From a virus: 56,168 nt of DNA. The notes under the pieces are model-generated. The model was not told the origin of the DNA, did not search any database, and saw nothing but the letters and a program-made list of their open reading frames with translations. Of this stretch, positions 13,688-56,168 are shown piece after piece. The stretch lies in the IMG/VR virus record IMGVR_UViG_3300050821_018768, positions 1-56,168 of that record; one strand, given 5' to 3'. A program made the translations under genes and the position numbers. Every line of letters begins with the position of its first letter. Position 1 is the stretch's first letter.

Positions 13688-13693
13688 GCGGCC

Positions 13694-13699
13694 TTGACA
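13694..13699 (+). promoter_or_regulatory. Possible -35 box before metallophosphoesterase gene
   Basis: A perfect TTGACA lies 32 bases before the start of the next gene, but no convincing -10 box is found at the right distance. It is recorded as a weak candidate only. Confidence 0.2.
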
Positions 13700-13730
13700 G
13701 TGCCGTTCGACCGCGGCAAACTCCCCAACG

Positions 13731-15047
13731 ATGGCGAAATCATTCACGGGGATCGACTACACCCACCCGTCTGCGTTACGGCCCGGGAGCTGGGCGGAGC
13801 TCGAGGATCGCGCACTCATCGAGGAGTACAAGAAGGGCGGAACGCTCCCGGAAATCTCCCTCGCGCTCACCAAACGGTTGAAACGCCCTATCACGGCGAA
13901 TGCAGTCAAGGATCGGGCGTACACCCTACGGGCCCGTGGCGTCGACGTCCCCAGCTTGCCGCGATCACGCCCGTCAGTAAGTAGCACCGAAGCGGCACCC
14001 CTCAATCCACTCGAGCGACGCGCAGCCCAAGATAAGGCAACACAAGCCCGCAAAGAAATGGAGGGGCTCGTCGATCAGGTGAAGGAGCTCAAGGTCCGCC
14101 AAGCGTTCCTCGACGCCGCCGCCGGGTTCAAGGCGCCTCCAGTGCTCCTGCCACGCGAGAAAAAGAGCGGCATCCGCGAGCTCTGTCCGATCGTACTCGC
14201 GAGCGATTGGCACGTCGAAGAGAACGTCGACCCGGAGAGCGTTGCGCGCCGTAATATCTACAGCCTCGAAATCGCCGAGGAGCGCATGGAGCGTTTTTGG
14301 CAGGGGATCATGTGGAACATCGAGCACCACCGCGCGAGCGGTAAGGTTGCGATCCGCGACTTGGTGCTCTGGCTCGGCGGGGACCTCATCACGGGCTACA
14401 TCCACCCGGAACTCGTCGAGATCGCGGAGTTGTCACCTACGGGTGCAATCCGATGGCTCATCTCACGGCTCCGCAATGGGATCGCGACGCTCCTCGAACG
14501 GTTGAAGCTCGATCGGTTGGTGATCCCTTGCAGCTACGGGAACCACGGGCGAACCACTGACAAGACGCGGATCGCCACCGGGGCCCACAACAGTTTCGAG
14601 TGGCTCATGTACCACATGATCGCGAACGAGTTCCGCGACGAAGAGCGGATCGTGTTCGAGATCACGGCGAGCGCGCACCAATACGTCGATGTTTTCGGGA
14701 GCATCGTTCATTTCCATCACGGTGACGAGGTCCGGTACAACGGTGGGATCGGCGGCCTCGGGATCCCGCTCCTCAAGGCGATCCCGAGCTGGGAGCTTGT
14801 GAAACCGGCGGCCCTTCACTGCCTCGGCCACCACCATACACTCCGCGACTTCGGCCGCGCGGTGGTCAACGGATCTTTGATTGGATACACCCCCTACTCC
14901 CAAAGCATTCGTTGCGAATTCGAGCTCCCGCAGCAAGCGATGTTCTTCTGGGATCGCTCGCGGGGTAAGTGCATGTTCACACCCCTTTGGGTCTCCGACT
15001 TGGAGAAGGACAAGAAGAGGGGCATCGGGATCAACGCCGGCACATGA
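13731..15047 (+). CDS. Calcineurin-like metallophosphoesterase with N-terminal DNA-binding-like domain
   Basis: The 438-residue product has an N-terminal helical region (residues 20-72) resembling SANT/Myb- or GcrA-like DNA-binding folds, then a coiled coil (about 95-128). The metal-binding motifs of the calcineurin-like family follow: SDWH (Asp159, His161), GGD (Asp218), GNH (271-272), HHGD (329-332) and GHHH (366-369). The complete set predicts a two-metal phosphodiesterase or nuclease acting on nucleic acids. Phage homologues of this layout are common and mostly uncharacterised. The gene is not overlapped at its 5' end, so it may have its own promoter. Confidence 0.9.
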   Translation: MAKSFTGIDYTHPSALRPGSWAELEDRALIEEYKKGGTLPEISLALTKRLKRPITANAVKDRAYTLRARGVDVPSLPRSRPSVSSTEAAPLNPLERRAAQDKATQARKEMEGLVDQVKELKVRQAFLDAAAGFKAPPVLLPREKKSGIRELCPIVLASDWHVEENVDPESVARRNIYSLEIAEERMERFWQGIMWNIEHHRASGKVAIRDLVLWLGGDLITGYIHPELVEIAELSPTGAIRWLISRLRNGIATLLERLKLDRLVIPCSYGNHGRTTDKTRIATGAHNSFEWLMYHMIANEFRDEERIVFEITASAHQYVDVFGSIVHFHHGDEVRYNGGIGGLGIPLLKAIPSWELVKPAALHCLGHHHTLRDFGRAVVNGSLIGYTPYSQSIRCEFELPQQAMFFWDRSRGKCMFTPLWVSDLEKDKKRGIGINAGT

Positions 15048-15274
15048 GCACGATAGATTGCTGCCTCTTCTGCCTCCGATGCCGCGGCTCCATCACAAGC
15101 GAGTTCTGTACCTATGGCCTCGCGCATGAATTCCCGACGCCCCCACCGCCACCGCCCATCAAAAAACGCGATGCGAAACTCTGCGTCGTGTGTAGCCTAC
15201 ACCCCGGCAACCCCGCATCCCAAACAAATGGTTGCGCGCACCAGTATTTGACCGCCTCACCCCCCAAGGGGTAG
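15044..15274 (+). CDS. Cys-rich zinc protein with polyproline hinge, 76 aa
   Basis: The N-terminal part carries CCLFCLRC plus another Cys, the middle has a run of eight prolines broken by Thr, and the C-terminal part has CVVC and a later Cys-Ala-His. Two zinc sites separated by a stiff hinge are likely. It is coupled to the phosphoesterase gene by ATGA, so it may be its partner. Confidence 0.7.
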   Translation: MSTIDCCLFCLRCRGSITSEFCTYGLAHEFPTPPPPPPIKKRDAKLCVVCSLHPGNPASQTNGCAHQYLTASPPKG

Positions 15275-15281
15275 GCTACAC
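15190..15281. promoter_or_regulatory. Paired gtag-ctac palindromes
   Basis: gtgtagcctacac at 15190-15202 is a palindrome around one central base, and gtaggctac at 15271-15279 repeats its core just before a GTG start. The 11-base arms gtgtagcctac and gtaggctacac also pair with each other. Either an RNA stem or a two-site operator is possible. Confidence 0.35.
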
Positions 15282-15282
15282 C

Positions 15283-15624
15283 GTGACCGACCAACCGGAA
15301 GCTGGAGCGGCAGAACCGGAAAACGACCTCGATCGGCTGGAGCGCAAGGTTGATGCGATACTCCACATGTGCATCACCAACCGAGATCTCTCGGCCAAGA
15401 TCGCGTCGGTGGTCGAGGTGGAGCGCCGGTTGGTGGATCGGTTCGATGATCGGTTGGCGCGCGCCGAAGCGCTAGAAAAATCCCTCGGCTCTACGGTGAT
15501 GAAACTTACCCTTGCGCGGCTTCCGACCAGCATCGCCGCGGGGGCTATCGCAGGGCTTGTAGCGGCCGCAGCCGTCACCTACCTCCTCTTTGGTGGGTTC
15601 GGGGGCATCGCCTCGGCTCATTGA
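15283..15624 (+). CDS. Coiled-coil protein with C-terminal membrane anchor, 113 aa
   Basis: The GTG start avoids extending the frame through the preceding gene. Residues of about 18-80 form a charged coiled coil, and residues 83-108 one membrane helix near the C-terminus. This order resembles XhlA-type haemolysin or lysis-accessory proteins, and lysis enzymes lie 2 kb downstream. The assignment is an inference from topology. Confidence 0.7.
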   Translation: MTDQPEAGAAEPENDLDRLERKVDAILHMCITNRDLSAKIASVVEVERRLVDRFDDRLARAEALEKSLGSTVMKLTLARLPTSIAAGAIAGLVAAAAVTYLLFGGFGGIASAH

Positions 15625-15680
15625 GCCCCCCGCGATATTCCCTTGCGTGCCCGACGCCGCGGTTGCGCTAAGCTCCTCAT

Positions 15681-16124
15681 ATGCCGCAGCGTCTGAAGAA
15701 CACCAACGCCCAAAAAGACACCGTCATCGGCGCTAGCGCGAGTGACACCGCCCTCGCCGACCAGCCCCTCACCGCCCAGGGCGGTCCGATGAGCATCACC
15801 GCGACGCCGACCGCGGTCCCGGGGGCCTCGATCAGCGTCCCGGCCCTTCCGGCCACCCGAAGCTACGTCATCACGTACTCGTGCGTGCTCGAAAACAGCG
15901 AGAGCGCAACGACCGTGACGGCGCGGATCTTCGATGGCGTCGCGAGCGCCGGGATCGTGACGGAGCCCCAGGCGCTTGCCGGGACCGACACGCAGATCAT
16001 CAGCTGGACGGTCAAGGTGGCGGGCAACGGCTCCGCGCGCACCTTCGGTCTCTCGTTGGCTGACCCCGCGAGCACCGCGACGGTTCCGGCGGCGGGCTGC
16101 ACCGGGGTCATCACCCTCTGGTAA
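15681..16124 (+). CDS. Probable virion or surface beta-protein, 147 aa
   Basis: The product is Thr/Ala/Ser-rich with regular short strands and no charged clusters, like many small phage virion proteins. The N-terminus resembles phrases found in head- or tail-decorating proteins, but no family can be named. It is separated from neighbours by more than 50 bases on each side. Confidence 0.65.
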   Translation: MPQRLKNTNAQKDTVIGASASDTALADQPLTAQGGPMSITATPTAVPGASISVPALPATRSYVITYSCVLENSESATTVTARIFDGVASAGIVTEPQALAGTDTQIISWTVKVAGNGSARTFGLSLADPASTATVPAAGCTGVITLW

Positions 16125-16175
16125 CCCGTCACTCGCGAAAGATACCGCCCGGCGTTGCTTCCAGGGAGTAACCGA

Positions 16176-16367
16176 TTGAAGCCCACTGCGCGTCAGCTCG
16201 TCGCCGAAGCGAATCGGCTCAAGGCCGTCGTCGTAGCGGTTCGGAGTGACATGCCCGAAGTCATCGACAACGCGCAGTACGCGAAGATCCACCGGGCCGA
16301 GATGGCCCATGAGGGGGCCCGGTGGCGCGCGATGGTGGCTCTTGCTGAAGAGGCGGGCCTTCTCTAA
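16176..16367 (+). CDS. Small helical protein, 63 aa
   Basis: TTG is chosen as start because agggag lies 7 bases before it; another TTG 21 bases earlier has no such site. The product is helical and rich in Ala, Arg and Glu. Its end overlaps the convergent minus-strand gene by 4 bases. Confidence 0.6.
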   Translation: MKPTARQLVAEANRLKAVVVAVRSDMPEVIDNAQYAKIHRAEMAHEGARWRAMVALAEEAGLL

Positions 16368-16825
16368 CGCGTCGACGTAGGCGCCGCAGGTGTCAGCGGG
16401 GCCTCATGGCGATCCATCCCAGCGCAACGGCTCGCCAGCGCCACCACCACCGCGATCAGCACCATCCCTACCCAATGGGCGACGGGGCGCACGGCGGCCT
16501 TGGCCCACGGCGGGAGGGACGGCCGCTTGCTCTTAACGGCAGGCGGGACACCCATGTGCACGGGGATCCCCGAGAAGGGGGAAAAGGCGGTGGCCGGAGT
16601 GAGGGTCCGATCTTCATGGCCTTGGATCCGCGACTGGCCTTGCTCGAGAGACCGAAGGCGCTCCTCGAAGCGGTCGAACCGCCGATCGTCTTGCGCGTTG
16701 CGTTCAGCGAGGCGCCGCTCGAGGCTCCGTAGGGTAAGGCCCTCACTCAGATCCCGCCCACGCTCCGCGAGCATCTCCCGCATCAGCTCCCAAACGAGCT
16801 CGTTGGACGAATTTCGGTCGGGCAT
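16364..16825 (-). CDS. Coiled-coil membrane protein, 153 aa
   Basis: The N-terminal 65 residues are a charged helical region likely to be a coiled coil, followed by a Pro-rich linker, one membrane helix at about residues 113-135 and a short Pro/Ala tail. Topology resembles the gene at 15283. It faces the GH25 island and may be a lysis accessory or spanin-like protein. No lipobox is seen at the N-terminus. Confidence 0.65.
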   Translation of the reverse strand: MPDRNSSNELVWELMREMLAERGRDLSEGLTLRSLERRLAERNAQDDRRFDRFEERLRSLEQGQSRIQGHEDRTLTPATAFSPFSGIPVHMGVPPAVKSKRPSLPPWAKAAVRPVAHWVGMVLIAVVVALASRCAGMDRHEAPLTPAAPTSTR

Positions 16826-16851
16826 CCCAGTGCGTATGGTACAGCATCCTC

Positions 16852-17118
16852 ATGTGTCCGCCCACCGGTAGTAGCAAAATCCCCCCGCCGCCTCCGCGCG
16901 AGTCGATCCCCGACGAGGAGCCGACGAAACCCGACGGGTATAGAGCGCGGTGCCCGGCCTGTCCCGATTCGACGGGCCAACCCACCGGGAAGGTAACCGT
17001 CGCGGAGTGGGGGGCCTCGAGTGTCTACCGCTACGTCGAGCGGACCTGCGATATTTGCCAGGGACTCAAGTGGATCGACCGCACGCAGCTTAGGCGTTGG
17101 GCAGAGCGCCAGAAGTAA
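16852..17118 (+). CDS. Zinc-ribbon protein, 88 aa
   Basis: A Pro-rich N-terminus is followed by CPACPD and CDIC pairs about 30 residues apart, a DnaJ-type or ribbon-like arrangement, and a helix (TQLRRWAERQ). It starts 26 bases from the divergent minus-strand gene and its last 29 bases overlap the end of the lysozyme gene. Confidence 0.7.
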   Translation: MCPPTGSSKIPPPPPRESIPDEEPTKPDGYRARCPACPDSTGQPTGKVTVAEWGASSVYRYVERTCDICQGLKWIDRTQLRRWAERQK

Positions 17119-17746
17119 CCGCGTCGAAGATGGAAAGATCCTTGGCGTAGTCGGTGTCGACCGGGGCGCCATTCGGGAGCTTGCCTCCGCCACCGCTGTT
17201 TTGCCAAAGCACCCAATCGGTCCATGGGTGGGGGATCAATGGGGCGTTGAGCTGGTAGCTCGCGGCCCAGAGGGGGTAGGCCGCAAACTCTGGGGTGAAA
17301 CCTACGTGCGCGGCCCAGTCGGGGTACGTGTAGACGATCGGGGTGGCGTTGCTGAGGGCCTGGTACGCCGACAGGTAGGCGAGGATCCACGCGTTGATCT
17401 GGCTCGCGGTGCAGCCCCACTTGGCCCAGTCTTGGGGCGCCGGCCATTCGCAGTCGATGCATGCGACGATGTCGGGGCCGGCGTGGTCGAAGTGAAGTTT
17501 CGCCTGGGCCTCGGGGGCACGCGACGGATTGCCAACCTGAGGAGGAAGTGGGTAGACGAAGTGGTAGGCCGCCACCTTCAGGCCTGCGGCACGCGCCCCC
17601 GCGACGTTCTTCGTGTAGTCGGGGTCGAACCCGCTGTTGCCCTGACCGCACTTGACGATCGCGAAGGTGTAACCCGCGGCGGCGACGGCCGGCCAGTCGA
17701 CGGCCCCTTGAACCGTCGAGACGTCGATACCCTTGGGGTAATTCAT
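17090..17746 (-). CDS. GH25 lysozyme (endolysin)
   Basis: The 218-residue product is a single glycoside hydrolase family 25 domain. It begins with GIDVSTVQG (Asp8), and has FAIVKCGQG, AYHFVYP, the catalytic CIDCE strand (Asp98 and Glu100), YTYPDWA and WVLWQNSG. This family hydrolyses the N-acetylmuramic acid to N-acetylglucosamine bond in peptidoglycan. No signal peptide or wall-binding domain is seen, so release through a holin is expected. The ATG overlaps the upstream stop (ATGA). It sits in a minus-strand island among plus-strand genes. Confidence 0.93.
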   Translation of the reverse strand: MNYPKGIDVSTVQGAVDWPAVAAAGYTFAIVKCGQGNSGFDPDYTKNVAGARAAGLKVAAYHFVYPLPPQVGNPSRAPEAQAKLHFDHAGPDIVACIDCEWPAPQDWAKWGCTASQINAWILAYLSAYQALSNATPIVYTYPDWAAHVGFTPEFAAYPLWAASYQLNAPLIPHPWTDWVLWQNSGGGGKLPNGAPVDTDYAKDLSIFDAVTSGALPNA

Positions 17747-18015
17747 GAGGCCATGCCGCCGCGCGCACTTTGAAAGGTCGCGTCGACGATCGCTTGGCAA
17801 GTCGGGCAGCACCCCGAGAAAATCTCGCCGTGCATCGCGTCGAGGAGCCGCACGACCTGTTGCGACATCATCTGTTGCCACTCGGCGTTGTCGACGCTTG
17901 CGATGAGGAGGCCCATCGCATGGAGCGAATCGAAAAACTCCGGGGCGCGCGCGCAAACCTCGGCCTTGTCGGAATCGCTCCACGACGTGTGGCTCCCCGT
18001 CGAGCAAAACCCCAC
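17743..18015 (-). CDS. Hypothetical protein with CCPTC motif, possibly frameshifted at its start
   Basis: The C-terminal 75 residues look like a real helical protein with a CCPTC metal or disulfide motif. The only start in frame is a weak GTG at 18015. An ATG overlapping the upstream stop (TGATG at 18043) opens a different frame with sensible N-terminal content (MARLELDDAGGVLLDGE), so one indel near 17975-17990, possibly at a run of four G, would join the two. Stop overlaps the lysozyme start. Confidence 0.55.
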   Translation of the reverse strand: MGFCSTGSHTSWSDSDKAEVCARAPEFFDSLHAMGLLIASVDNAEWQQMMSQQVVRLLDAMHGEIFSGCCPTCQAIVDATFQSARGGMAS

Positions 18016-18042
18016 CCGCGTCGTCGAGCTCGAGGCGCGCCA

Positions 18043-18489
18043 TCAGGTGCCCGAAACCTTGCCCAAGGCAAGAATGTTACTCGCGACGGCGAAGAGCGCA
18101 AGGCCCCCGAGGCCGATGCCGGCGGTGGCGAGGCCGCTCAACCGGTTCTTGTCGGAGAAAATGCTCACCACCAGCCCGCCGACGGCGGTGACCGCCACGC
18201 CCGACTCCGCTCCGGTGAGCGCGCCCGTCGCGGCGGGGCTCTGCGTGAGCGCTCCGGCGCCGGCCCCCACGAGCGCCCCCAGGATCAACGCGCCGAGGGC
18301 TGACGAAACGGCGGTCTCGGTCGAGCCGTAGGAGGGGTTACGGCGTGCGCGGCGGCGGTTTCGTTTTTTAGCAGCGCGTTGTTCGCGATATGCAGCTGCG
18401 ACCGCACGGTCTCGGGGCATCCCTTCCCGGCGCAACTTCGCGATGTTACGGCCCCGCGCGGCGTCCGTCGACGAGTGCTCGAGGGGCAT
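18043..18489 (-). CDS. Membrane protein with basic RRRARRNP motif, 148 aa
   Basis: The N-terminal 50 residues are very basic and contain KLRREGMPRDRAVAAAYREQ, a motif seen in small phage DNA- or membrane-binding proteins, and RRRARRNP. Two to three Gly/Ala-rich hydrophobic segments follow (about 60-85, 93-110 and 120-140). The RRRARxNP motif recurs in the small membrane proteins at the right end of the window. It may be a holin because it lies upstream of the lysozyme, or a virion membrane protein. Confidence 0.75.
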   Translation of the reverse strand: MPLEHSSTDAARGRNIAKLRREGMPRDRAVAAAYREQRAAKKRNRRRARRNPSYGSTETAVSSALGALILGALVGAGAGALTQSPAATGALTGAESGVAVTAVGGLVVSIFSDKNRLSGLATAGIGLGGLALFAVASNILALGKVSGT

Positions 18490-18590
18490 GGGTCAAGGAT
18501 AGCCCAGCCGAGCCCCCCGGGGTAGTATGAGGAGACGCCGCAGAGACGCAGGTCTGCCCCGAAAAAGGCCCCCTGCGGCGTCACCACCCC
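18490..18590. promoter_or_regulatory. Divergent promoter region with leader hairpin
   Basis: A TAGTAT -10-like box at 18523-18528 would start transcription at the foot of a perfect inverted repeat, gacgccgcag (18534-18543) and ctgcggcgtc (18573-18582). The hairpin ends 8 bases before the next ATG, so it could block ribosome binding. No clear -35 is visible. Confidence 0.4.
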
Positions 18591-19169
18591 ATGCCTCAGG
18601 TTGCAGCCGTCAAAACTAGCTACACCCCGTCCGTTGTCGCCGGGGCGATGATCTGGGCCTACCAGCAGGTCACCGGGAAAGCCCCCCCGGCGACCACGAG
18701 CTGGCTCTACCCCCTTGCGCAGAGTGCGATCGAAACCGCCGCATGGGCCGGTTGCTACAACAACAACGCCGGCAACGTCACGACGGCGAACCCCAACACC
18801 GACCCGTGGATGTACGAGCCGGGCAACGCCCTCCAATTCCGCAGCTACAACACGATCGGCGACGGCTGCGTGAGCATGATCAAGTGGCTGTCGTCGCACG
18901 GCACGTTGGCGTACGCCGACTCGGGGGATGTTTCCGGCTACCTCTCCAGTTTGCAGGCCGGCTGCTACGCGGGGTGCGGCGTCGCTTACCCCGACATCAG
19001 CGGGTACGTCTCGAAGTACCAAAACATAAGCCCGACCCCTTACCTGAATCTTCAAACGTGGCAGGTGGTGGCGATCGCCAGTGGGATTTTGCTCGGTTGC
19101 GGCTGCATCGCTTACTACATCGCCGAGGGCGAACTTCCAACACCGAAACGACTTGCGCAAACGCTCTGA
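18591..19169 (+). CDS. Membrane-anchored peptidoglycan-hydrolase-like protein, 192 aa
   Basis: Residues of about 40-145 resemble a glucosaminidase or transglycosylase-type domain: ETAAWAGCYNNNAGN near the start, LQFRSYNTIGDGCVSM, then a GDVSGYLSSLQ and Y..P..Y pattern typical of that superfamily. Residues of about 155-178 are a membrane helix (VVAIASGILLGCGCIAYYIA). A C-terminal anchor and lack of a signal peptide suggest a virion- or membrane-associated lysin used at entry. The family call is by pattern only. Confidence 0.6.
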   Translation: MPQVAAVKTSYTPSVVAGAMIWAYQQVTGKAPPATTSWLYPLAQSAIETAAWAGCYNNNAGNVTTANPNTDPWMYEPGNALQFRSYNTIGDGCVSMIKWLSSHGTLAYADSGDVSGYLSSLQAGCYAGCGVAYPDISGYVSKYQNISPTPYLNLQTWQVVAIASGILLGCGCIAYYIAEGELPTPKRLAQTL

Positions 19170-19181
19170 AAGAAAAAAACG

Positions 19182-20732
19182 ATGCCCCACATCCCCGGAA
19201 ATAACCAGGTCGACGCTCTACGCGGGCAGGCCGCCATCAAAGGTGGCGGGGGCGGTGGTGGGGCCACGGGTGCAACTGGGCCCACCGGGGGTGAGGGCGC
19301 CACCGGGGCCACCGGAAGTGGAACCACTGGAGCGACCGGAACGCAAGGGGCCTCGGGGGCCACGGGGCCCGCGGGCGCTTCGGGGACCTCCGGAGGCACC
19401 GGTGCAACCGGCGCGACTGGCGCGACGGGCGTAGGAACCGTCGGGGCGTCTGGTGCCACGGGCGCTACGGGGCCCACGGGAGTTGGAGCGACGGGCGCCA
19501 CCGGCACCGCCGGATCACCAGGGGGCGCCACGGGCGCTACCGGGGCCACCGGTGTAAACGGAGCAACCGGCGCCACCGGTACGGTAGGGGCAACCGGCGT
19601 AGGTGCGACGGGGGCCACCGGAAGTGCAGGCGCGACCGGGCCGGGCGGAGGTGCATCGGGACCGACCGGGGCCACCGGAGCGACTGGTTCGAACGGAGCT
19701 ACGGGTGCTACCGGGGCCGGTGCAACAGGGGCTACCGGCGCAAACGGAACCACGGGTGGGGCCGGATCGACGGGAGCCACCGGGGCGACCGGGGTTGGAG
19801 CGACCGGCGCAACAGGGCCGAGCATCGCTACGCCCGTAAGCGTCGCGAATGGTGGCACCGGAGACAGCACCCTAGCGGCGCACTCAGTCCTGATTGGGGC
19901 TGGCACTTCGCCGGTGACCCAATTGGCGCCCGGCACCAACGGATATGCGCTCATCAGCCTCGGCGCATCGAGCGACCCTATTTACGGCCAACTGGAGCTA
20001 AGCCCCGGGGGCTCCCAGGGTGTAGCGGGTACCCTCCCGGTAGCCAACGGGGGCACCGGCCAAACCACCCTTACGGCCCATAGCGTATTGGTCGGCGATG
20101 GGACTAGCGCCGTGACGCTCGTCACGCCGGCTACGACCGGCTATCCGCTCGTTAGCGACGGACCCACGAACGATCCAATCTTCGCGCAAGTGCTCCTCGG
20201 TGGGGGCGCGGCCGGTGTCGCAGGGACCCTCCCGGTAGGTAATGGGGGTACGGGTCTCACCAGCCCCGGGGCCGCCGGCAACGTGGTTCAGAGCAACGGA
20301 TCGGCCTTGCAATCAGCGCCGGTGCCTAGCGCAAGTGCGTATGACTACCAAGGCGCAACCGTCGATATCGGTAGCGGCAGTATCACGCAGATAGCGGTGT
20401 GCTCGGCAGTCGCCCCGGCGGCGGGGTTTTGGATCATCCAAGCTGACTTCTCTTTTCAAAACATTTCAGGGATATTCGGTACCAATCAAGTGACGGTTAG
20501 CTACGGAATCGGTTTCGACACCAATAGTAGCTTCGGCCCAGGGCGCGGCGGGTCTCAAATCCAAGGCGCCCTCGCAGGCGCGCAGCAATTCAGCACGGGG
20601 TCTTCGGCCTACCGCGTAGCGACCACCGCGGGGTCTCATAATTTTTACGCCCTCGCACAAACGAGCGCCGCCTATAGCGCGGGCCTAGTGACAGCCGTTG
20701 CGGATATCGCTGTCGTGTGGAGCGCCACCTAA
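19182..20732 (+). CDS. Collagen-like fibre protein 1, 516 aa
   Basis: The N-terminus ([11 protein letters not shown]) is shared in variant form with the next three genes and is the likely attachment peptide. About 190 residues of Gly-X-Y repeats follow, mostly GAT, GPT and GAS (19260-19830), predicting a collagen triple helix. The C-terminal half has three NGGTG-type repeats ([30 protein letters not shown]), common in tail-fibre and spike proteins, then a compact beta head. It is probably a trimeric receptor-binding fibre. A short polyglycine stretch links anchor and collagen. Confidence 0.88.
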
Positions 20733-20748
20733 AAAAGGCATCCCCCCA

Positions 20749-23247
20749 ATGAGCAGCCAAAATATTCCGGGGTCGAGTCAGGTTGACGCCCTCCGCAACG
20801 CCTCGTACTTGAAGAGCGGCGCGAGCGGCCCGACGGGGCCCGGCGGCGTCACGGGGGCTACGGGCGCGACCGGGCCCGCGGGTAGCCCGGGGGGCGCGAC
20901 GGGAGCTACGGGTCCGATCGGTCCGGGTGGGGGTGCTAGCGGACCGACCGGCCCTACCGGTTCGAACGGAGCTACCGGCGCCACGGGGGCGGGTGTCACC
21001 GGCGCGACAGGGCCGCTCGGCGCTACTGGAAGCACCGGGCCTGAGGGCGCTACCGGTCCCGTGGGGGCCCAAGGGGCTACGGGGGCAAGCGGCACGCCGG
21101 GGACCAACGGGGCCACTGGGGCAACCGGAGCTGCGGGCAATACCGGCCCCACCGGAGCCAAGGGCGCGACCGGCACTGCGGGGCAAAACGCGTTCGGCGT
21201 CACGACGGCCGATTTCGTTCAACCGGCGGTCGGCACCACGGTTACGATCCAAGTGGATTCCACCGCTTGGATGGGGATGGGGCAACCCCTCTTCATCGAA
21301 ACCGGGGGGGATTACATCATCGACGGGATCGCGTCGGGCACGATCCTCACCGTCACCAACGTCGGCGGTAGCGTCAATGCATCCCCTGGGACTACCGTCC
21401 CGAGCGGATCGACCGTGAGCCCGGGGGGTTTGCAAGGGGCTACGGGACCGACCGGGCCTCAGGGCATCACCGGGCCCCTGGGTGCAACCGGCGCCACCGG
21501 CGCAACGGGCGGGATCGGAGCTACCGGAAGCACGGGGCCGACGGGAATCACCGGTGCGACCGGTGCCGGGGTCACCGGAGCCACGGGCGCAGTCGGTTCT
21601 ACCGGGCCCACGGGGCCGGTGGGGATCACGGGTGCTACCGGGCCTCAGGGGAATCAAGGAACGACAGGGCCGACCGGACCCACGGGTGGTCAAGGCGCCA
21701 CTGGGGCTACCGGGGCCACCGGAACTACGGGGGGCGTCGGGAGCACGGGCGCCACCGGTACGCAAGGGACGACCGGGCCGACGGGCGCGCAAGGAACGAC
21801 GGGGCCCACGGGGGCGACCGGGGGCCAGGGTGCAACGGGCGCCACCGGCGCCAATGGAACGCAGGGGGCTACGGGAGCCACGGGAACTCAGGGAACCACC
21901 GGACCGACGGGCGCCAACGGAGCCAATGGCGCGACGGGTGCAACCGGGGCCACGGGTGCCCAGGGGGTCACCGGCGCCACCGGAGTGGGCTCACTCAATC
22001 CACCGGTCACAACGACGGTCCACACCAACAGCAGCAATGCGATCTATACCATCGACTCTACGGGGGGCGGGGCCGATAGCATCATCTGGCATAACAAGAC
22101 GGGCAATACCTCTTACGTTTTGCCGGCGCCGACCGCGGGGCGGCTCCTTCAGCTCCAAGATCGTCGGGGCTCGATCCAAACCCCCAGCAACTGGGTGTCG
22201 ATTGTGCCCAACGCGGGGGAGTCGATCAATAGCTCCGCCGGCTTCGCGATGACCGGCACCGTCACGACGAACGGTACCACGGCAATCGTTGGTTCGAGCA
22301 CCCTCTTTACCCAAGAGACCTACGTCGGGGCCTCGATCATCATCTCGAATCAAGGCGGGGTCGACTACATCATCGCATCGATCACCGACGACACCCACCT
22401 GACGCTCACGACGGCCTTCACCGGTGCATCTGCGTCTGGTCTGACGAGCCTTCGCACAAGCCTTCTCTTCGCCGCAAACTACGGGCGGCTCTACATCGAG
22501 TCCGACGGGACCAACTGGTCGATCAACGGTGACGGGACACCGACGCGCATCCAATTTACGACGGCCACCTCGTTCATACCCCCCGCTGGGGTAGCCGCCG
22601 GAGTGGCCGTAGGCGCGGGCGGCGGAGGTGGTGGGGGCGGCGGCGGCACAACGTCCAGTCAGAGCGCGGGTGGTGGCGGGGGCTCGCTCGAGGGCCGAAA
22701 GGATGTTGCCTTTACACCGAACACCTCATATGCAGTTACGATCGGGGCGGGGGGTGCGGGGGGTAATGCGGGCGCCAATATCGGCACCCACGGAGGGAGT
22801 ACAGCGCTCGGGTCGCTCGTAACTTTCCCGGGAGCATCGGGCGGTCAATCGAACACCGGCGGAGGGGCGGGAGGGATCGCCGTCACATCCACCGGGGCCA
22901 CAAACGTTTACCAAAATAACAACGGCATCGGCGGGTCCGTCGCCGGGGGTGGGGATGGGGGTAATTCCAGCGGCCCACCCGCAGGTGGCGGCGACAATCC
23001 GTCCGGAGGTCTGGGTGCAGCCGCAGGAACGTCTTCGGGCATATGGTATGGAGGGGGCGGTGGAGGCGGCGGCCCGCGCGGTAACGGCGGCGCCGGGGGT
23101 ACCGGTAGCAATGGCGGTACCGCAGGCAATGGTGTCGCACCGAGCGCGAACACCGGCGCGGGGGGCGGCGGCGGCGGTACCGGTGCCGCGGGCGGGAACG
23201 GCGCTACCGGCGGCTCCGGCTACCTCGATGTCATCTACACTCTCTAA
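20749..23247 (+). CDS. Collagen-like fibre protein 2 with polyglycine head, 832 aa
   Basis: The ATG is the one giving [16 protein letters not shown], the shared anchor. Two collagen tracts (about 20821-21190 and 21436-21985) flank a globular unit of about 75 residues ([10 protein letters not shown] to SPGGLQG) that recurs in fibre 4. A beta domain follows, and the last 220 residues are a Gly-rich region (up to ten Gly in a row) ending in YLDVIYTL. Such heads recall polyglycine-helix adhesins like T-even gp38. It is the longest of the four and most likely a variable receptor-binding tip. Confidence 0.88.
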
Positions 23248-23274
23248 AAAAACAAAAGCGGAAAGCGGAAACCA

Positions 23275-24834
23275 ATGAGTGCCCAAAACATTCCCGGATC
23301 GAGTCAAGTCGACGCGTTACGAAACCTCCAATACATCCGCTCCGGCGGCGGGGGCGGAGGCGGCGCTACGGGCCCGACCGGGCCTAGCGGAGCTACCGGC
23401 GCAACTGGTGCTACCGGGGCTACAGGCGTGGGGGCTACCGGGCCGACAGGCCCCCAGGGAGCGACAGGGGCTACCGGGCCGACAGCATTCCAACCGCTAG
23501 GGGCTGTACGGTATATCGACCCCGCCAATTCGAGCGGGGGTGCATCCGATTCCAACACCGGGGCCAACCCCACCAACAGCCCGCCGGGCACGGGCCCGAT
23601 CCTCACGACGGCACACCTCAACACGCTCTTGTTTTTCCGGACGCTCCCCGGCGACGTCACGATTACGTACCTCAGCGACGATACCGGATCGACCCCCCTC
23701 AACTACTCACTCGTCGACCTGGGCGGCCATGCGCTCAACTTCGACGGGACACCCCAAGTGACCCACACGGGGGGAACATTCAATACGGGCACGATCGCGA
23801 TCAACCCTACGGCCGTCGGCGGCGGGCAGCGACAGGTTGTACATACGACCGATCTGGGAACCTTCAACCCCTACGTGTTTACGGGGCTCGGGGGAAGCTC
23901 TACTCACCCCCAATGGGTTGAGGATCTCACCGGTGGAAATACCGGTACGACAGCTTGGGTTGTATCCGGGGTCGCGTCGGCGTCGATGTCGAGGCCGATC
24001 ACAACGTCGATTACGGCGGGGGCGTTCACGATCGGCGACTCGTACCGAATCATGCGAGGCTCAACGTTGAACGTTGTCGGAAGCTCCCCTCCGATCGAGG
24101 ACAGCAACGCGAGCGTCAATTTTTCGAATTTCGCATTCGGATCAAATCATATCGGGATCAACGGTGCTAATTATATAAATTGCAGCTGGGAGGGGCCTCT
24201 CCAATCGGGGGGTACCTTCTCTAACTGCTACTTCGGAGTTGGCCTTACGGAGTTTGCCGGCCTTCCAGTAGGCCTCATCGTTTTGAGCGCCGGTGTCTTG
24301 GTTACTACCGGGGCTGAGAACTCCAACGCCGCGGCGGCCCTCGGTGACGACTGTTATATCACCGGAGCTACCTTGACGTTGAGTAATGGGTTCTTAGCGG
24401 ATGCGTACATTTTCACTACCTCGATTGGGGCCGGTATTCAGGTGCAAGACACTACCTCGGCCCTCGGAGCTATCTTGCTAACGCTTACGTTCGACGTATC
24501 CACCAATAGTTCACCCACCGACCAATTGATTTGGGGCAACGGCAACGCCGGATACGGTCTTGTACTCAACCCAGGCGGGGCTATGACCGTATCGAGGGCA
24601 GCCGGGACGGGTATTAGCGTCACCGGTGCCGCGGGGGATTTTGCGTTTCAAGGGCCCACGGGTATCGTGGCGGTCGGTCGCGCGTGGGATGAGGCGACGG
24701 CGGCCTATACGGATCCGGGAGCTAACCCCACGAGGGCTACAACTTGGGCGAATTTTGCGGCCGCCATCGGATCAGGCGGTTTTGGTTTCAACGTCCACGA
24801 TGTAACCACTGGTGCTAGTGTCGTTGGGATCTAA
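23275..24834 (+). CDS. Collagen-like fibre protein 3 with large beta head, 519 aa
   Basis: The anchor [16 protein letters not shown] precedes a short collagen tract (about 23370-23490). The C-terminal 430 residues are Thr/Gly/Asn-rich with regular strands (NFSNFAFGSNHIGINGANYINCSW), suggesting a beta-helix or pectin-lyase-like head. Base composition of this head is a little more AT-rich than its neighbours, which hints at exchange of the tip. Probably a second receptor-binding protein. Confidence 0.87.
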   Translation: MSAQNIPGSSQVDALRNLQYIRSGGGGGGGATGPTGPSGATGATGATGATGVGATGPTGPQGATGATGPTAFQPLGAVRYIDPANSSGGASDSNTGANPTNSPPGTGPILTTAHLNTLLFFRTLPGDVTITYLSDDTGSTPLNYSLVDLGGHALNFDGTPQVTHTGGTFNTGTIAINPTAVGGGQRQVVHTTDLGTFNPYVFTGLGGSSTHPQWVEDLTGGNTGTTAWVVSGVASASMSRPITTSITAGAFTIGDSYRIMRGSTLNVVGSSPPIEDSNASVNFSNFAFGSNHIGINGANYINCSWEGPLQSGGTFSNCYFGVGLTEFAGLPVGLIVLSAGVLVTTGAENSNAAAALGDDCYITGATLTLSNGFLADAYIFTTSIGAGIQVQDTTSALGAILLTLTFDVSTNSSPTDQLIWGNGNAGYGLVLNPGGAMTVSRAAGTGISVTGAAGDFAFQGPTGIVAVGRAWDEATAAYTDPGANPTRATTWANFAAAIGSGGFGFNVHDVTTGASVVGI

Positions 24835-24867
24835 CTACCTCGCTGGGAATCGTAAGAAGCTACAATC

Positions 24868-26697
24868 ATGGGTCAAAATATCCCGGGGTCATCCCAAGTC
24901 GACGCACTTCGTAATCAGGCGGCCCTCAAAGGCGCTACCGGCGGAGCCTCCGGACCTACTGGGCCCGAGGGCCCCACCGGCGCCACGGGTCCGGCCGGAA
25001 CTCCGGGGGGAGCTACCGGAGCCACCGGACCGATAGGCCCCGGCGGCGGCGCGTCTGGGCCCACCGGCCCTTCCGGCCCCACGGGGTCCCCTGGCGCTAC
25101 GGGTGCGACCGGTTCTGGTGCTACGGGTGCGACGGGGGCGAGCGGCACTGCCGGAACCGCGGGGGCCACCGGCGCAACAGGTGCGGGCGTGACCGGGGCC
25201 ACCGGGAGCCAAGGGGCAACGGGCGCAACTGGGGCCTCAGGTACAGTCGGGGCCACGGGCGCAACCGGAACGAAGGGGGCCACCGGGGCTTCCGGCGCCA
25301 ACGCCTTCGGGGTGACCACCGCAAGCTTTGTGCAACCCACCGTCGGGAGTGACGTCAGCGTCAACGTTGACACCACCGATTGGATGGGGCTCGGCCAACC
25401 CGTGTTCGTAGAGACCGGGGGTGACTACACCGTGGCGGGCATCGCCAGCGGCACGATCGTGAACCTGACCAACGTGGGGGATAGCGTCAATGTGAGCCCC
25501 GGCACGACGGTCAACGCCGGTTCAAGTATTAGCCCCGGGGGCTTGCAGGGCGCCTCTGGACCGACGGGCCCCACCGGAACCCAAGGAGCGACTGGCGCCA
25601 CGGGGGCGCAGGGGATTCAAGGCCCCTCCGGACCTACGGGGGCTACGGGACCGGTTGCGGCGACGGGGCCCACCGGCCCGGCGGGTGTCACCGGCGCGAC
25701 AGGGCCGCTCGGCGCCACTGGAGCCACGGGCGCAGTGGGAATCACCGGGGCTACAGGGCCGAACGGAAACACTGGCGCAACGGGCGCTACGGGGCCGGGG
25801 GGAACGCAGGGCGCCACCGGGGCCACCGGCAGTGGTGGGGCCCAAGGCGCAACCGGAGCCACCGGGGCAAACGGAACGAACGGCGCTACCGGCAATACCG
25901 GGCCGAATGGGGCCACGGGGGCCACTGGAGCCTCCGGAAGTGCGAACGTCACGGTAGGCACGTTTGCGTCGATGCCGGCTGCGGGCACGTCGGGGAGGGT
26001 CTATATCGCGACCGACTCGGCGGTGGGGTTCCAGGTGGATGATGGAACGGCGTGGCGGCCGATGTTGGGGGGGATGGTGCCGGGAGTTCGACCGCCGTTG
26101 GCGGCCACGTTCACGGCGGTGAATCAGGGCATCTCCACACTCACCGATGCGAACGGTACGTTGATCTACAATGGGGTCAATGACGGAAATACAACAAACG
26201 TCTTTCGCGGCTATGTACAGTCATGGCCGAGCGGGACAACCAATACGAATACAGTCGAGGGCTCACTCGCCCAGATCGGTAACGCAACATCGAGCACTAA
26301 CAACGCATTTCCAAGTTTTACGCTCGTCATGCGCGAATCGGCCACCGGCAAGATGCTTATGGCGGAACTGATCGAATCGACAGATTTCCCAGGCTCTTCT
26401 GGGCTCGCAGGCCCATACTTCCTTGCGATCTCTACGTGGACTAATAACACCACTAGAGCCCCTACCCAATACAGCCTCGCCGACCACGCGACAGGGTCCC
26501 CTATCTTCATTCGGCTCCGCCGAGCGACCGCTAATATCTTCATAGAGACTAGCCGCGATCGTCAAAATTGGGTTCAGATAGGGGTCAGCTTCGCCGTCAC
26601 GGCCGTCTTTACGACGGCGCCGGATCAATACGGCATCGGTGGCTTTGGGGACGGGTCTATCCCCGTAGGCCAATGCATGCATCTCATCGCATCATAG
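24868..26697 (+). CDS. Collagen-like fibre protein 4, 609 aa
   Basis: The anchor [14 protein letters not shown] is followed by collagen tracts (about 24946-25300 and 25546-25940) around the same globular unit as in fibre 2 ([10 protein letters not shown] to SPGGLQG). The C-terminal 250 residues, from [17 protein letters not shown] onward, look like a lectin-like beta sandwich ([34 protein letters not shown]). The head differs from those of the other three, so the anchor and stalk are conserved and tips are exchanged. Confidence 0.88.
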
Positions 26698-51720: not shown

Positions 51721-51884
51721 AGCCGGCCGACAATCACCCGTTCAAAACCCGCCGCCGCGCCATCGCGGGCCCGAACGTCGACGACGCGCCTGCGAAACAC
51801 CCACGCCCCGATTGGATGTCGAACAAGGATCTGCTCCCCAAGAAGCCGCCCGTGGGCCCATCGACCCCGAAGGATTACCGATGA
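51717..51884 (+). CDS. Small basic protein, 55 aa
   Basis: GTG overlaps the previous stop, and TGA overlaps the next ATG. The product is rich in Lys, Arg and Pro with no hydrophobic core, suggesting a disordered, nucleic-acid- or protein-binding peptide. Confidence 0.6.
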   Translation: MKPADNHPFKTRRRAIAGPNVDDAPAKHPRPDWMSNKDLLPKKPPVGPSTPKDYR

Positions 51885-53389
51885 GCGACGATTTGGATCT
51901 CGAAGACACGTCGGAAGAGGAGCCCGAGGAAACCCCCAAGCCCGCACCGCGGAAGTCGATGCGGCCGAAGCGCGGGGTTGGAAACGCGGGTGCCTTGCCG
52001 GCGGCTGTCGGCGTCGCCCCCGGGGCCCCCGCGCCATTCCGCCGCCAGGCAAGTGAGGCCGATGCGGTATGGAATGAGCTCGTCGCGTGGCTTCCTTCTG
52101 CGGGATTGACCCCGCGTGACATCGCGATCCAAGTGCGCCGCGTCGCGCCCCCCGCGCCCTCCGGTGAGCCCCTCCCGATCGGTCGCGCGTTCGGCGGCGA
52201 GATGGTGAGCGGGAACAACACCGAGCCCCCCGGCTCTGCGCTTGTGCAATTCGTCATGCGCTACATGCACATGCCCCTCACCCAGACACCGGCCAGCTAC
52301 GATCTGATGTTCATGCGCAAGGCCACCGGCGCGCAGCTCGCGACGGGCCGCTTGGCGTTGCCTTCGGCTCAAGATTGCCAGGCGATGTTGCAGGCCGGCG
52401 AGCAAGCCGGTTTGGGGGCCCCGGGCGCGCCGCCGCAACAGATGTGGCAACCACCACCGATGTATCCGCAGGGCCCGGGGTTACCGCAGGGGTACCCTTG
52501 GCCTTCACAAGGGACCGGCTACCCCCAAACCTATCCATCGGCGCAATTCGGGCCGCCTCCGCAACCCACTGCGCCGCAAGGATTCGCGGCCCCCGGAATG
52601 GATCCCGGGGTGATGAATGAGCTCGCGTATCTCCGTGGCGCATTGGGCGAGGCCCTCAACGCGGCACGCGAGGGGCGTCAGCCGAATCTCCCCGGATCAG
52701 CACCGCCCCCCGCGGCCCCCACGGGCACCGGCGGCCTTACCGATCTCGATGTCGATCGCATTGCCGCACGCGTCGCGACGATGATGGGCGCGGTTGCAAA
52801 AACAGTCGGCGCCCCCCCGGCACCTCCTCCGCCCGTCCCGACGGTTGCGGCGCCGCCTCCCGATTCAAGCCTCGAAGGGATGATGCGTACCGCAGTCGCC
52901 GGCATGACCAAGCGCATCTTCGACACCGCCCTCGGGAGTGTTGAAAAGAGCGTGACTCGCTCCATCGGCATCGGGGGGATCCCCCAGACCGACGACGATG
53001 ACGGCGAGGAAATGCCGCCGCCGGCGCAGATCGTTCCGCCGGAGAAGCCCGAAGACATGGTGCCGTGGAAGGTCGGCGACGTCGGGGCCAACTGGAGTAA
53101 CGGAAGCCCCGTCAAGATCGCGATGAACAAGGAGACGGGGAAGTTGGATCCCATGGGCCTCGCCTTTGCGAATCCCGCGGTGGCCGAAAAGCTCATCGAC
53201 GTTGCCAATGGCCTCGGGATGGCACTTCAGGATGCGATCAAAAACTTCGGGGCGAAACCCGGAGTCGGCGCACCGCCGCAGCCGAGCCCCCACGTGGTGC
53301 ATTCGATCCCCGCCGGCGCCGTCGACGCTACGGTCGGGGCCTCAGATGATACGCCGCAAGCAATTCCCGACGGTTGGCAAGCGCCGTGA
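51881..53389 (+). CDS. Pro/Gln/Gly-rich virion-like protein, 502 aa
   Basis: The ATG overlaps the upstream stop. The product has an acidic N-terminus followed by a basic patch and a folded domain (about 55-180). A low-complexity segment of Pro, Tyr, Gln and Gly (about 190-255), helical parts around 260-300 and 345-375, a DDDD stretch and a C-terminal domain (about 390-465) follow. Such mosaic proteins occur as scaffold, minor-capsid or DNA-binding virion proteins. No named family. Confidence 0.7.
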   Translation: MSDDLDLEDTSEEEPEETPKPAPRKSMRPKRGVGNAGALPAAVGVAPGAPAPFRRQASEADAVWNELVAWLPSAGLTPRDIAIQVRRVAPPAPSGEPLPIGRAFGGEMVSGNNTEPPGSALVQFVMRYMHMPLTQTPASYDLMFMRKATGAQLATGRLALPSAQDCQAMLQAGEQAGLGAPGAPPQQMWQPPPMYPQGPGLPQGYPWPSQGTGYPQTYPSAQFGPPPQPTAPQGFAAPGMDPGVMNELAYLRGALGEALNAAREGRQPNLPGSAPPPAAPTGTGGLTDLDVDRIAARVATMMGAVAKTVGAPPAPPPPVPTVAAPPPDSSLEGMMRTAVAGMTKRIFDTALGSVEKSVTRSIGIGGIPQTDDDDGEEMPPPAQIVPPEKPEDMVPWKVGDVGANWSNGSPVKIAMNKETGKLDPMGLAFANPAVAEKLIDVANGLGMALQDAIKNFGAKPGVGAPPQPSPHVVHSIPAGAVDATVGASDDTPQAIPDGWQAP

Positions 53390-53505: not shown

Positions 53506-54876
53506 GTGGTGGTGACGCCCCATTGGCCGTCGTACGGTAGCGCGGCCCGTCGAGGCTTGGGGGCCGCCTTGGGGGCTGACTCTTGTCCCGTACCGCTCGA
53601 CGCGAACGGCAATTGCCCGGATTTCTTGAATAGCGCTGGGGCCGAGGCGAATGCCGGAGTCTTCAACCCGGATGATCCGACGCAAGATCTACCGGGGCAG
53701 GCTACGGCTCAGTTCAACTCGCTGGTGAATTCGGCCCAGCCCGCGGCAGCTCTACAGCAGCAGCTTCAAAGCGCGATCGGCTCCGCCACCGGCCAAGCCA
53801 AGGCAGCTTTCCAGGGGTACGCGGGCGAGATCCAAGCCATCGAGAGCTACCCCGGGGCGGCGGAGGCGGCCGAGGGGATGATTACGGCTGCCGGCGGTGG
53901 TGTACCGACAGATGCCCAGCTCCAAGGGGCCTTCACCGTTGCGGCAACCGCCGGTGCCGTGGCCCTCGGTGCGACCGCGACGGCTGCGGCGACCATCGTG
54001 GCGCCACTCTGCGCGGTCGTATGGGGGGCCGGGTACGCGATTGGGGCCCTTGTACAGAACATCCTCGGGATCACGAGCGGTAGCCCCACGCCATGCTCCG
54101 GCGGCGACACCGCGGTGTACGGAACATCTCCCGGAGATCCGAACTGGCAAACGTACATGGGGTTGTCGGGCCCGGAGCTTGGCGCACCGTGGGGCCCCTA
54201 CGCGCCCCAACAAGCGGCGAACATCCAAACGTTGAAGAGCCTCGCCGGTAACCCGACGTACGGCGCCCCTGCGAACTGGCCTTACTGGACCCCGTACACG
54301 CGAGGGGCCTTCGAAAACTGGGCCGGCGGGATCATCATCCACGCCGAAGAGCTTTGGATGAATTGTAAGAAGGTGCCGCCGGACAACACGGCGACCACGC
54401 TCTTGAAGGGCCTCGTAGGGGCGTGGAACGCGCAGTACCCCAACGCGCCGAAGCGTCAGATCAACATCGCCGGCCTGGGGCCTACCGCGGTCGACGGCCA
54501 GATCAAGGCGTTGAGCAACACGTCGTTTCCGACAAGTTTTCGGCCCCCGCTCTATTGGCAGTGGATGGCGTGGCAGGGCGATCCCATTCAGTACCTCTTG
54601 ACCCAGGTCTCGAATGAGCAAGGGGGGAATATCGCGATCACCGTCGCCGACCCACCCCTGACGCCCCCCGCGGCCTCGGCCCCTACTACTTCCGCGGGTA
54701 CCGCCGTCGCCAACGTCGCGGCCGGTACCGCCGTCGCCAACGTCGCGGCCGGTACCGCCGTCGTCGGTGGGGCGGCGCTCACCGGGACCGCGGTGTATGC
54801 TTTTGCTAAGGGTCAAGCCGTCAGCACCGTCCTCAAGTCGGGCTTGCTCGCGATCAAGGGATGGTTCATTCGATGA
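53506..54876 (+). CDS. Large membrane-inserting virion-like protein, 456 aa
   Basis: A triple GTG (53506-53514) supplies the start and makes the exact first residue uncertain. Residues of about 140-190 are a long hydrophobic Ala/Gly/Val region (TAGAVALGATATAAATIVAPLC and on), enough for a helical hairpin. The soluble part that follows is rich in Trp, Pro and Tyr. The C-terminus has three GTAVANVAA repeats and a last membrane helix. It begins the series of membrane proteins at the right end. Confidence 0.7.
   Translation: MVVTPHWPSYGSAARRGLGAALGADSCPVPLDANGNCPDFLNSAGAEANAGVFNPDDPTQDLPGQATAQFNSLVNSAQPAAALQQQLQSAIGSATGQAKAAFQGYAGEIQAIESYPGAAEAAEGMITAAGGGVPTDAQLQGAFTVAATAGAVALGATATAAATIVAPLCAVVWGAGYAIGALVQNILGITSGSPTPCSGGDTAVYGTSPGDPNWQTYMGLSGPELGAPWGPYAPQQAANIQTLKSLAGNPTYGAPANWPYWTPYTRGAFENWAGGIIIHAEELWMNCKKVPPDNTATTLLKGLVGAWNAQYPNAPKRQINIAGLGPTAVDGQIKALSNTSFPTSFRPPLYWQWMAWQGDPIQYLLTQVSNEQGGNIAITVADPPLTPPAASAPTTSAGTAVANVAAGTAVANVAAGTAVVGGAALTGTAVYAFAKGQAVSTVLKSGLLAIKGWFIR
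54697..54763 (+). repeat. 27-base tandem repeat
   Basis: Two complete and one partial copies of a 27-base unit starting ggtaccgccgtcgcc encode GTAVANVAA. Copy number may vary without a frame change. Confidence 0.85.
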
Positions 54877-55316
54877 AACGCCGCCGCAGAGCTCGCGCGA
54901 ACCCTACGGGGGCCCAATGGCTCCTCATCTCGGGTGCAATCGGCGCCGTCGGTGTGCTGGGCTACCTCGTTTACAAGGCGAACGCCCCCGCTGCATCGCT
55001 CCCCTCCGGTGCCGGCTCGACCTACAACGTTCAGCTCTCTTCGGGTTCCCTCCCGACCATCACGATGTCGCTTTCGAAGGGTGACCAGATGAGCCTCACG
55101 CCCCCAGCGGGCGGCACCCTCCCCACCGTGACCTTCAGCCCCACGAACATCGTCGGCCCCAACCCCAACGGGGCTTACCTTGCCTACTCACCGATCGCGG
55201 TCGGTAGCACGACGTGCACGGTCAACTACACCGACACGACCGATACAACCAGCACGACGAGCACCGCCACCGGCAACACCGAAACCGCAACCTTCACCGT
55301 GAACGTGACAGCTTGA
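54873..55316 (+). CDS. Single-pass membrane protein with RRRRARANP motif, 147 aa
   Basis: The ATG overlaps the previous stop. The basic motif MKRRRRARANP is followed by one membrane helix (about 16-37, WLLISGAIGAVGVLGYLVYK) and a Thr/Ser-rich beta domain of about 100 residues. Positive-inside topology places the motif in the cytoplasm or virion interior and the beta domain outside. Related by its first 40 residues to the next genes and to the gene at 18043. Confidence 0.8.
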   Translation: MKRRRRARANPTGAQWLLISGAIGAVGVLGYLVYKANAPAASLPSGAGSTYNVQLSSGSLPTITMSLSKGDQMSLTPPAGGTLPTVTFSPTNIVGPNPNGAYLAYSPIAVGSTTCTVNYTDTTDTTSTTSTATGNTETATFTVNVTA

Positions 55317-55516
55317 TGGCTCGGCGTCGCGCGCGGGCGAACCCCGGAGTGGATGTGTGGCTCGCGCTCGGCGCAGGCGTCGCCTTGCTTGGTGCCGGCA
55401 TCTACTTCTTTACCAGACCGACAGCCACCACAAGCACTACCGGCACCGGCGCACTCCCCCCAAGCACCCACCGCGCGGCCATCCCGATGGTCTACACCGC
55501 CCGCCTCACTTCCTGA
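55316..55516 (+). CDS. Single-pass membrane protein with RRRARANP motif, 66 aa
   Basis: ATG directly overlaps the preceding TGA. MARRRARANPGVDVW leads into one membrane helix (about 15-33) and a short Thr-rich tail. A compact member of the RRRARxNP series. Confidence 0.75.
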   Translation: MARRRARANPGVDVWLALGAGVALLGAGIYFFTRPTATTSTTGTGALPPSTHRAAIPMVYTARLTS

Positions 55517-55528
55517 TCGGAAACCCCC

Positions 55529-55963
55529 ATGGCCCGTCGACGCAAGCGCACCCGTAAGACTGAAGTTCAAGAGAACGGCCCCGAGCTCCTCTGGATTCTC
55601 GCTGGGTTGGGTGTTCTCGGGGCCGGCACCGTGGTCTACCTCGCGACGCGACCCCCGGCGACGACGACCCCCTCGTCGGCCGCGGTGCAGGCGGCGGCGC
55701 AAGCACGCCTCAACGCGATCGAGTCGAACATCGCCGATCAGGGTAACGCGGAGTTCGACGAACTTGGGGGGGCCTCCACCAGCGCGAACGCCCCCTCCAA
55801 CGGTGGTAGCACGGGCCCCGTGAACACCGGGAACTCCGACGTCGATAACGCCGCGAACAGCGCGATCAATAATGCTACGGGCCAAGCCACCGACGCGGTG
55901 AATAACGCGACGAGCAGCGCCGGCAACGCGGTGAACACCGCAGCTTCTCAATTCGGATTCTGA
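55529..55963 (+). CDS. Single-pass membrane protein with basic N-terminus, 144 aa
   Basis: MARRRKRTRK replaces the RRRARxNP motif of its neighbours; the membrane helix spans about 20-40. The outer part of about 100 residues is Ala/Asn/Ser-rich, with helical repeats (AANSAINNATGQATDAVNNA). Likely a related or replaced member of the series. Confidence 0.75.
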   Translation: MARRRKRTRKTEVQENGPELLWILAGLGVLGAGTVVYLATRPPATTTPSSAAVQAAAQARLNAIESNIADQGNAEFDELGGASTSANAPSNGGSTGPVNTGNSDVDNAANSAINNATGQATDAVNNATSSAGNAVNTAASQFGF

Positions 55964-55972
55964 TCTTTTCCG

Positions 55973-56168
55973 ATGGCGCGCGCTCGGGAGAACCCCATTG
56001 AGCTAGCCGTGTGGCTCATCGCTGCCCTCGCGGCTGCGGCGACGGGTACAGTCGTCTACGTGACGGCGAGGAAGAGCGCATCGAACGCCGCGGCCACTGC
56101 GGCGACAACGGCCGCAAACAACGCGGTGCTCACCGGCCCCGCCATCACGAACCCCGAGGCCGGCGGCG
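55973..56168 (+). CDS. Single-pass membrane protein with RARENP motif, 3' end outside window
   Basis: MARARENPIELAVWLI starts at the ATG ten bases after the previous stop and continues to the window edge. One membrane helix at about 10-32 is followed by an Ala/Asn-rich helical tail. It is the fourth adjacent gene of the same architecture, so the series may continue. Confidence 0.7.
   Translation, partial: MARARENPIELAVWLIAALAAAATGTVVYVTARKSASNAAATAATTAANNAVLTGPAITNPEAGG

Follow-up and report, generated by a model that had tools for sequence, protein, structure and literature searches.

Tandem basic-ended membrane proteins point to a candidate virion module of large phages that probably lack a tail and contain an internal membrane

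Four tandem genes at the right end of an incomplete phage record from IMG/VR (56,168 bases; this whole stretch is called the window) encode small proteins with a short basic end, a membrane helix and an outer tail, here called tether proteins. The reading that we prefer, at a probability of roughly 55%, places these genes among several single-span membrane proteins that are encoded in the virion module of phages with genomes of ~70-79 kb, where the basic ends would bind the DNA and the outer domains would register the capsomers. The phages belong to an undescribed group whose members probably lack a tail and contain an internal membrane, and the most likely role of the tether proteins is to connect genome, membrane and shell. 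The genes concerned and their two upstream neighbors are as follows.

51881..53389, + strand: structural-module gene, acidic and proline-rich, 502 aa.
53506..54876, + strand: upstream structural-module gene, 456 aa, inner hydrophobic segments and a C-terminal helix with a basic end (...KGWFIR).
54873..55316, + strand: tether gene 1, 147 aa, MKRRRRARANP start (KRRRRARANP), one helix at about residues 12-36 and a beta-rich, possibly Ig-like tail.
55316..55516, + strand: tether gene 2, 66 aa, MARRRARANP start, one helix and a short tail.
55529..55963, + strand: tether gene 3, 144 aa, MARRRKRTRKTEVQENGPEL start (basic without NP), one helix ending in VVYLATRP and an Ala/Asn-rich tail.
55973..>56168, + strand: tether gene 4, MARARENP start and one helix, with the ORF open at the contig end.

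The four plus-strand ORFs succeed each other with overlaps or short gaps, and the gene directly upstream (53506..54876) shares 4 bases with tether gene 1. A search with this upstream gene returned one relative, contig IMGVR_UViG_3300044981_000350 (G001, 73,439 bp), which is 93% identical to the window at the DNA level here. Between the two contigs, tether gene 1 shows 0 nonsynonymous and 9 synonymous changes, and dN/dS is 0.10 for tether gene 2, 0.25 for gene 3 and 0.08 for the part of gene 4 that is present in the window; the four ORFs are therefore real coding genes under purifying selection. The sequence-only reading had described four adjacent genes with a basic start, each followed by a membrane helix and a tail. 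All four do start with a basic tract and each encodes one hydrophobic helix and a tail, but the NP of the proposed motif is found in three of them and missing from the third, where K or R occupy 7 of the first 11 residues. Neither the tether proteins nor their tails have a credible Pfam match. The acidic gene at 51881..53389 has no Pfam or PHROG match, and a similar gene lies at the same position in G001 and in the related loci L012, L014, L020 and L022.

Window positions 12660-21228 match the end of G001 and positions 21057-23627 match its start, so that each contig bridges the ends of the other and both map to one circle, from which ~17 kb are consequently absent in the window (L007:14943 to L008:11798). 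This missing stretch contains the complete tether gene 4 (L003:12420-13031 in G001; 203 aa with a beta-rich tail), a two-helix protein, a transglutaminase-like gene, a 500-aa basic protein, a candidate major capsid protein of 443-458 aa and two further candidate shell proteins, CP2 and CP3. The repeated cassette extends beyond the right end of the window, with four more basic-helix genes in this stretch, which also encodes mirror-image proteins with a C-terminal basic tail. The candidate major capsid protein is found in 10 IMG/VR contigs including G001, and CP2 in the same 10; the two contigs of 40.7 kb and 69.3 kb that contain L020 and L021 have identical gene lists over the stretch read. Because 5 of the 8 longer records checked overlap directly at their ends (62-123 bp; no exact overlap in G001, G004 and G007), the lengths of 69.6-78.6 kb among the relatives probably represent complete, circular-mapping genomes. 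Beyond these contigs, tblastn of phage records with the capsid candidate, the first tether protein and the basic protein gave no relative, and neither a relative nor a provirus appeared when GTDB genomes were searched with alignments of the candidate major capsid protein and CP2.

The tether series recurs in the relatives at the same kind of position. In G001, 4 tether-type genes precede the candidate shell genes and another 4 follow them; L020 has 5 before the candidate shell genes, and L011-L013 and L022 have several. A homologue of the gene at 53506..54876 adjoins the series in related loci. The genes thus do recur together in other phages, and a role as membrane components of the virion or of its assembly fits their place beside candidate capsid genes; the sequence-only reading had proposed virion or host-membrane components. 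A profile built from the 8 cassettes of G001 matches proteins of L012 (E 2e-11), L011 (4e-9), L013 (5e-9), L022 (4e-4) and L020 (2e-3), with the best reversed-sequence decoy at E = 0.16. In the window the same profile matches the four tether genes only, at E 1e-17, 2e-17 and 8e-16 for tether genes 1, 2 and 3, whose G001 orthologues are part of its seed. The three most distant loci (L014-L016) have C-terminal forms only and no N-terminal member by the thresholds used. Mirror-image forms, in which a C-terminal helix carries the basic end, are present in 9 of 9 loci examined, and the profile picks up one of them in L013 (SPWIIGGAAAVVAGGVGYAVYRARKRRRG, E 9e-6).

The RRRARxNP motif had been taken as the defining element of the family, and this view does not extend to the relatives. 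In the same place in L020, the members of the series start with MKKSSERAFWIGG-, MKKTTKRVLWIGG-, MKKSTKELLCITG- and MKQSTKDALWLGG-, those of L022 with MTKGAKKAAWIVG- and MRRARRNPVESTG-, and those of L011 and L012 with MKRSTRNWLIGGG- and MKKETKIALAVGG- and also with MRRRKAKKNPSGSTWLLLGVG-, or an extended form of it, encoded on the minus strand; members identified in these loci by profile and synteny have starts of the types MKKTTK-/MKKSTK-, MTKGAKK- and MKKETK-, without NP. The part in common is the Gly-rich helix, which has a Y close to its end and often [RK]P after it. The recurring unit is a short basic end with one Gly-rich helix and an outer domain, and RRRARxNP is one local version of a broader family of anchors. 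The motif itself is not a product of chance: in 5 of 123 G001 proteins, an NP among the first 60 residues has at least 3 K/R in the 7 positions preceding it, whereas 1000 rounds of shuffling averaged 0.54 such proteins and never gave more than 4. Basic-ended membrane proteins are also concentrated in the structural module of G001, with bounds that we set after the data had been seen: 8 of 28 proteins in the module vs 4 of 95 elsewhere (p 8e-4), or 8 of 19 vs 4 of 30 when membrane proteins only are counted (p 0.04).

The idea that the outer parts of a constant cassette are simply exchanged did not hold up either. When alignments are scored against shuffled sequences, the tail of tether gene 1 is related to the tails encoded at L013:13192 (Z 10.5) and L020:4404 (Z 8.1). 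Other tether tails are linked to each other in the same way; the low-complexity tail of tether gene 3 shows no clear relation to others. By sequence comparison, several outer domains are homologous to each other, and they look beta-rich and possibly Ig-like. In L022, a small membrane protein (L022:15038-15379) contains a stretch closely similar to the candidate major capsid protein (ALYGGMDLRHMLRGNSEFRTLEVPYLIEEGVPIGLL) and reads as if a fragment of the capsid protein had been joined to an anchor.

The protein encoded directly before the candidate capsid gene bears on what the basic ends may do. In 9 of 9 loci examined, this position is taken by a protein of 500-578 aa whose first 234-278 residues are 31-46% K+R and 2-6% D+E; this basic part is followed by NP (as ENP, ANP or RNP) and a helix, the same junction as in the tether proteins. 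This histone-like protein looks like a membrane-anchored DNA-condensing protein, and because it shares the basic-NP-helix junction within the same module, contact of the small basic ends with DNA is plausible. We consider it unlikely that the tether proteins are virion membrane proteins whose basic ends serve as "positive-inside" topology signals only and whose outer domain is a spacer between membrane and capsid, with no contact to the genome. In L020 and L022, tails with as few as 2-4 net charges (MKKSTK-) suffice, and the homology and conservation of several outer domains would suit a spacer as well, but the tail of the histone-like protein goes far beyond any topological need at the same junction, and the density of basic residues at the start of tether gene 3 likewise argues against a purely topological role.

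Under our preferred reading, the tether proteins would insert into the cytoplasmic membrane of the host with their short basic end on the cytoplasmic side, this end being N-terminal in the tandem genes and C-terminal in their mirror-image partners. The basic ends together with the histone-like membrane protein would bind viral DNA, the beta-rich outer domains would contact and register capsomers, and the membrane patch would then bud or wrap into a DNA-filled vesicle within a protein shell, without a terminase. A lipid membrane inside the shell would agree with the large number of single-span proteins that the candidate virion module encodes.

Comparable schemes exist for other internal-membrane viruses. 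For HCIV-1 and HHIV-2, archaeal viruses of the vertical single beta-barrel type, small membrane-proximal and single-span proteins are described that position the capsomers and pentons on the membrane inside the shell (PMC6414509). GPS-II/GPS-III, VP10 and VP13 of these viruses resemble the tether proteins in being small, several with one predicted transmembrane helix, and in being thought to position capsomers or pentons; they differ in that no sequence relation to the tether proteins was seen. The genomes of these viruses are linear and ~30 kb according to the family profile. Here, 8 such genes with basic ends flank the candidate shell genes of G001. For PM2, the transmembrane proteins P3 and P6 were proposed as templates for capsomers on a genome-binding membrane patch, with the DNA enclosed without an empty procapsid (PMC6356626). 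The tether proteins would resemble P3 and P6 as proteins that register capsomers on such a patch; a tblastn search of the phage collection with the first tether protein gave no match. Sulfolobus polyhedral virus 1 (SPV1, Portogloboviridae) has subcapsomer proteins that span membrane and shell as well as a nucleoprotein core (PMC8459092). It would be alike in its circular dsDNA, inner membrane and subcapsomer proteins, with VP4 as the top, if weak, structural match of CP2, but differs as a 20 kb archaeal virus without a polymerase of its own. By analogy, the present anatomy would fit the scheme proposed for the HCIV-1 GPS proteins and PM2 P3/P6, with the basic end inside, the helix in the membrane, the beta domain outside, a histone-like partner and no recognized motor.

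More tentatively, the relatives may be bacterial viruses of an undescribed lineage, tailless and with an internal membrane, that has circular-mapping genomes of 70-79 kb and whose DNA would be zippered to a membrane patch by basic tails of N-in and C-in anchors and by the histone-like membrane protein, without a recognizable motor. Such genomes would be several times larger than those of PM2, SPV1 or sphaerolipoviruses; PM2, with a genome of ~10 kb, is a far smaller virus than the present lineage. The lineage behind the anchor family is more interesting than the motif itself. If this view is right, it points to a large tailless phage lineage for which the annotated phage collection that was searched contains no capsid relative. 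It would also provide named gene products for testing the idea, proposed for PM2, that membrane proteins couple the registration of capsomers to the enclosure of the genome, with no packaging motor driving the process.

We use "candidate capsid" as a label that rests on position and conservation and, for CP2 and CP3, also on fold matches; the capsid candidates gave nothing usable against PDB sequences, Pfam, PHROGs or by tblastn in phages. For the candidate major capsid protein (443 aa), AlphaFold with a 7-row alignment gave a model with a pLDDT of 38, which was not used. CP2 and CP3 modelled in one chain reached a pLDDT of 60, with much of the CP2 core at ~75-87; for this chain, two in-frame stop codons of L010 (one in L011) were read as residues, a modelling convenience that says nothing on the genes. 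The top PDB match of CP2 is VP4 of SPV1 (Foldseek probability 0.99, E 4.8e-3; Z 7.9 over 150/178 residues), ranked first by both Foldseek and VIA-align, and CP3 matches chain b of HHIV-2 (second by Z; Z 7.5 over 120/135 residues), with other jelly-roll capsid proteins and unrelated beta sandwiches close behind. With Z under 8 and no PDB match at E <= 0.001, the matches do not rise above the background stated for the tool, and a single jelly-roll fold of CP2 and CP3 is a lead for the type of shell. No HK97-type capsid stood out in the structure searches, where absence from such a list is no evidence.

Across nine records, Terminase_6N (PF03237) and the HK97 capsid family (PF05065) gave no match, with positive controls, and neither did FtsK_SpoIIIE (PF01580, the one family covered among the ATPase families of the FtsK/HerA superfamily), whose control matches in 10 of 14 genomes. 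No terminase, portal, capsid, tail or packaging family is among the 23 Pfam families (47 proteins) and the 25 listed of 55 PHROG families; diverged versions may escape such searches for terminase, HK97, portal and tail proteins. Instead, the Pfam families and listed PHROGs comprise replication, repair, nucleotide and glycosyltransferase genes, an integrase and an endolysin. It is improbable, in our view, that these are tailed phages with unrecognized tail and packaging genes in which the series encodes membrane-piercing or injection proteins: terminases can be very diverged in metagenomic lineages and collagen-like fiber genes are present, but against this stand the negative searches with working controls, the five records with overlapping ends and the lack of any tail or portal family among those listed.

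The sequence-only reading had counted a fifth member in the lysis region, the minus-strand gene at 18043-18489, which we rule out as a member of the tether family. Its NRRRARRNP lies near residue 50, after the stretch LRREGMPRDRAVAAAYREQR, and not at the start; it has a basic N-terminal domain and three predicted helices (measured on the G001 orthologue), and the cassette profile does not match it. The gene lies just upstream of the GH25 endolysin gene and, by this position only, is a holin candidate. There is only a slim chance that the tether series itself encodes host-envelope proteins of infection (for lysis, superinfection exclusion, or receptor or envelope modification) and not virion parts, since such an assignment, though backed by the GH25 endolysin gene in the genome and by the fact that proteins with these functions are commonly small and single-span with a basic N-terminus, sits poorly with a series that adjoins candidate shell genes in the relatives, lies ~37 kb from the endolysin in the window and shares its module with mirror-image partners and the histone-like protein.

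Several other genes of these phages deserve mention. Strings of the GLG/GVG type (GLGAP, GVGA, GLGE) are found near the N-terminus of soluble module proteins, e.g., L008:833-1588 and L008:4391-4819 in G001 and others in L012, L014, L016, L020 and L022, and possibly mark a maturation cleavage site; in G001, 10 of the 25 module proteins have them, compared to 2 of the 90 proteins outside the module (p 2e-6), although several of these hits are the Gly-rich helices themselves. Two genes are candidates for maturation enzymes, one encoding a protein with a cysteine-protease-like QGQTGSCGGHGT motif (window 3-812 and L008:11683-12609) and the other the transglutaminase-like gene at L007:15717-16931, with a weak Pfam match at E 0.0065 that is below the Pfam cut-off. 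A series of long proteins with collagen-like GATGPTG repeats (window 19182-26697; L008:4830-6785) probably forms fibers. Finally, a GroES-like gene is present at L008:10480-10782 (Pfam Cpn10, E 1.3e-14, among the proteins scanned) and can be recognized by eye in L014, L020 and other relatives, too.
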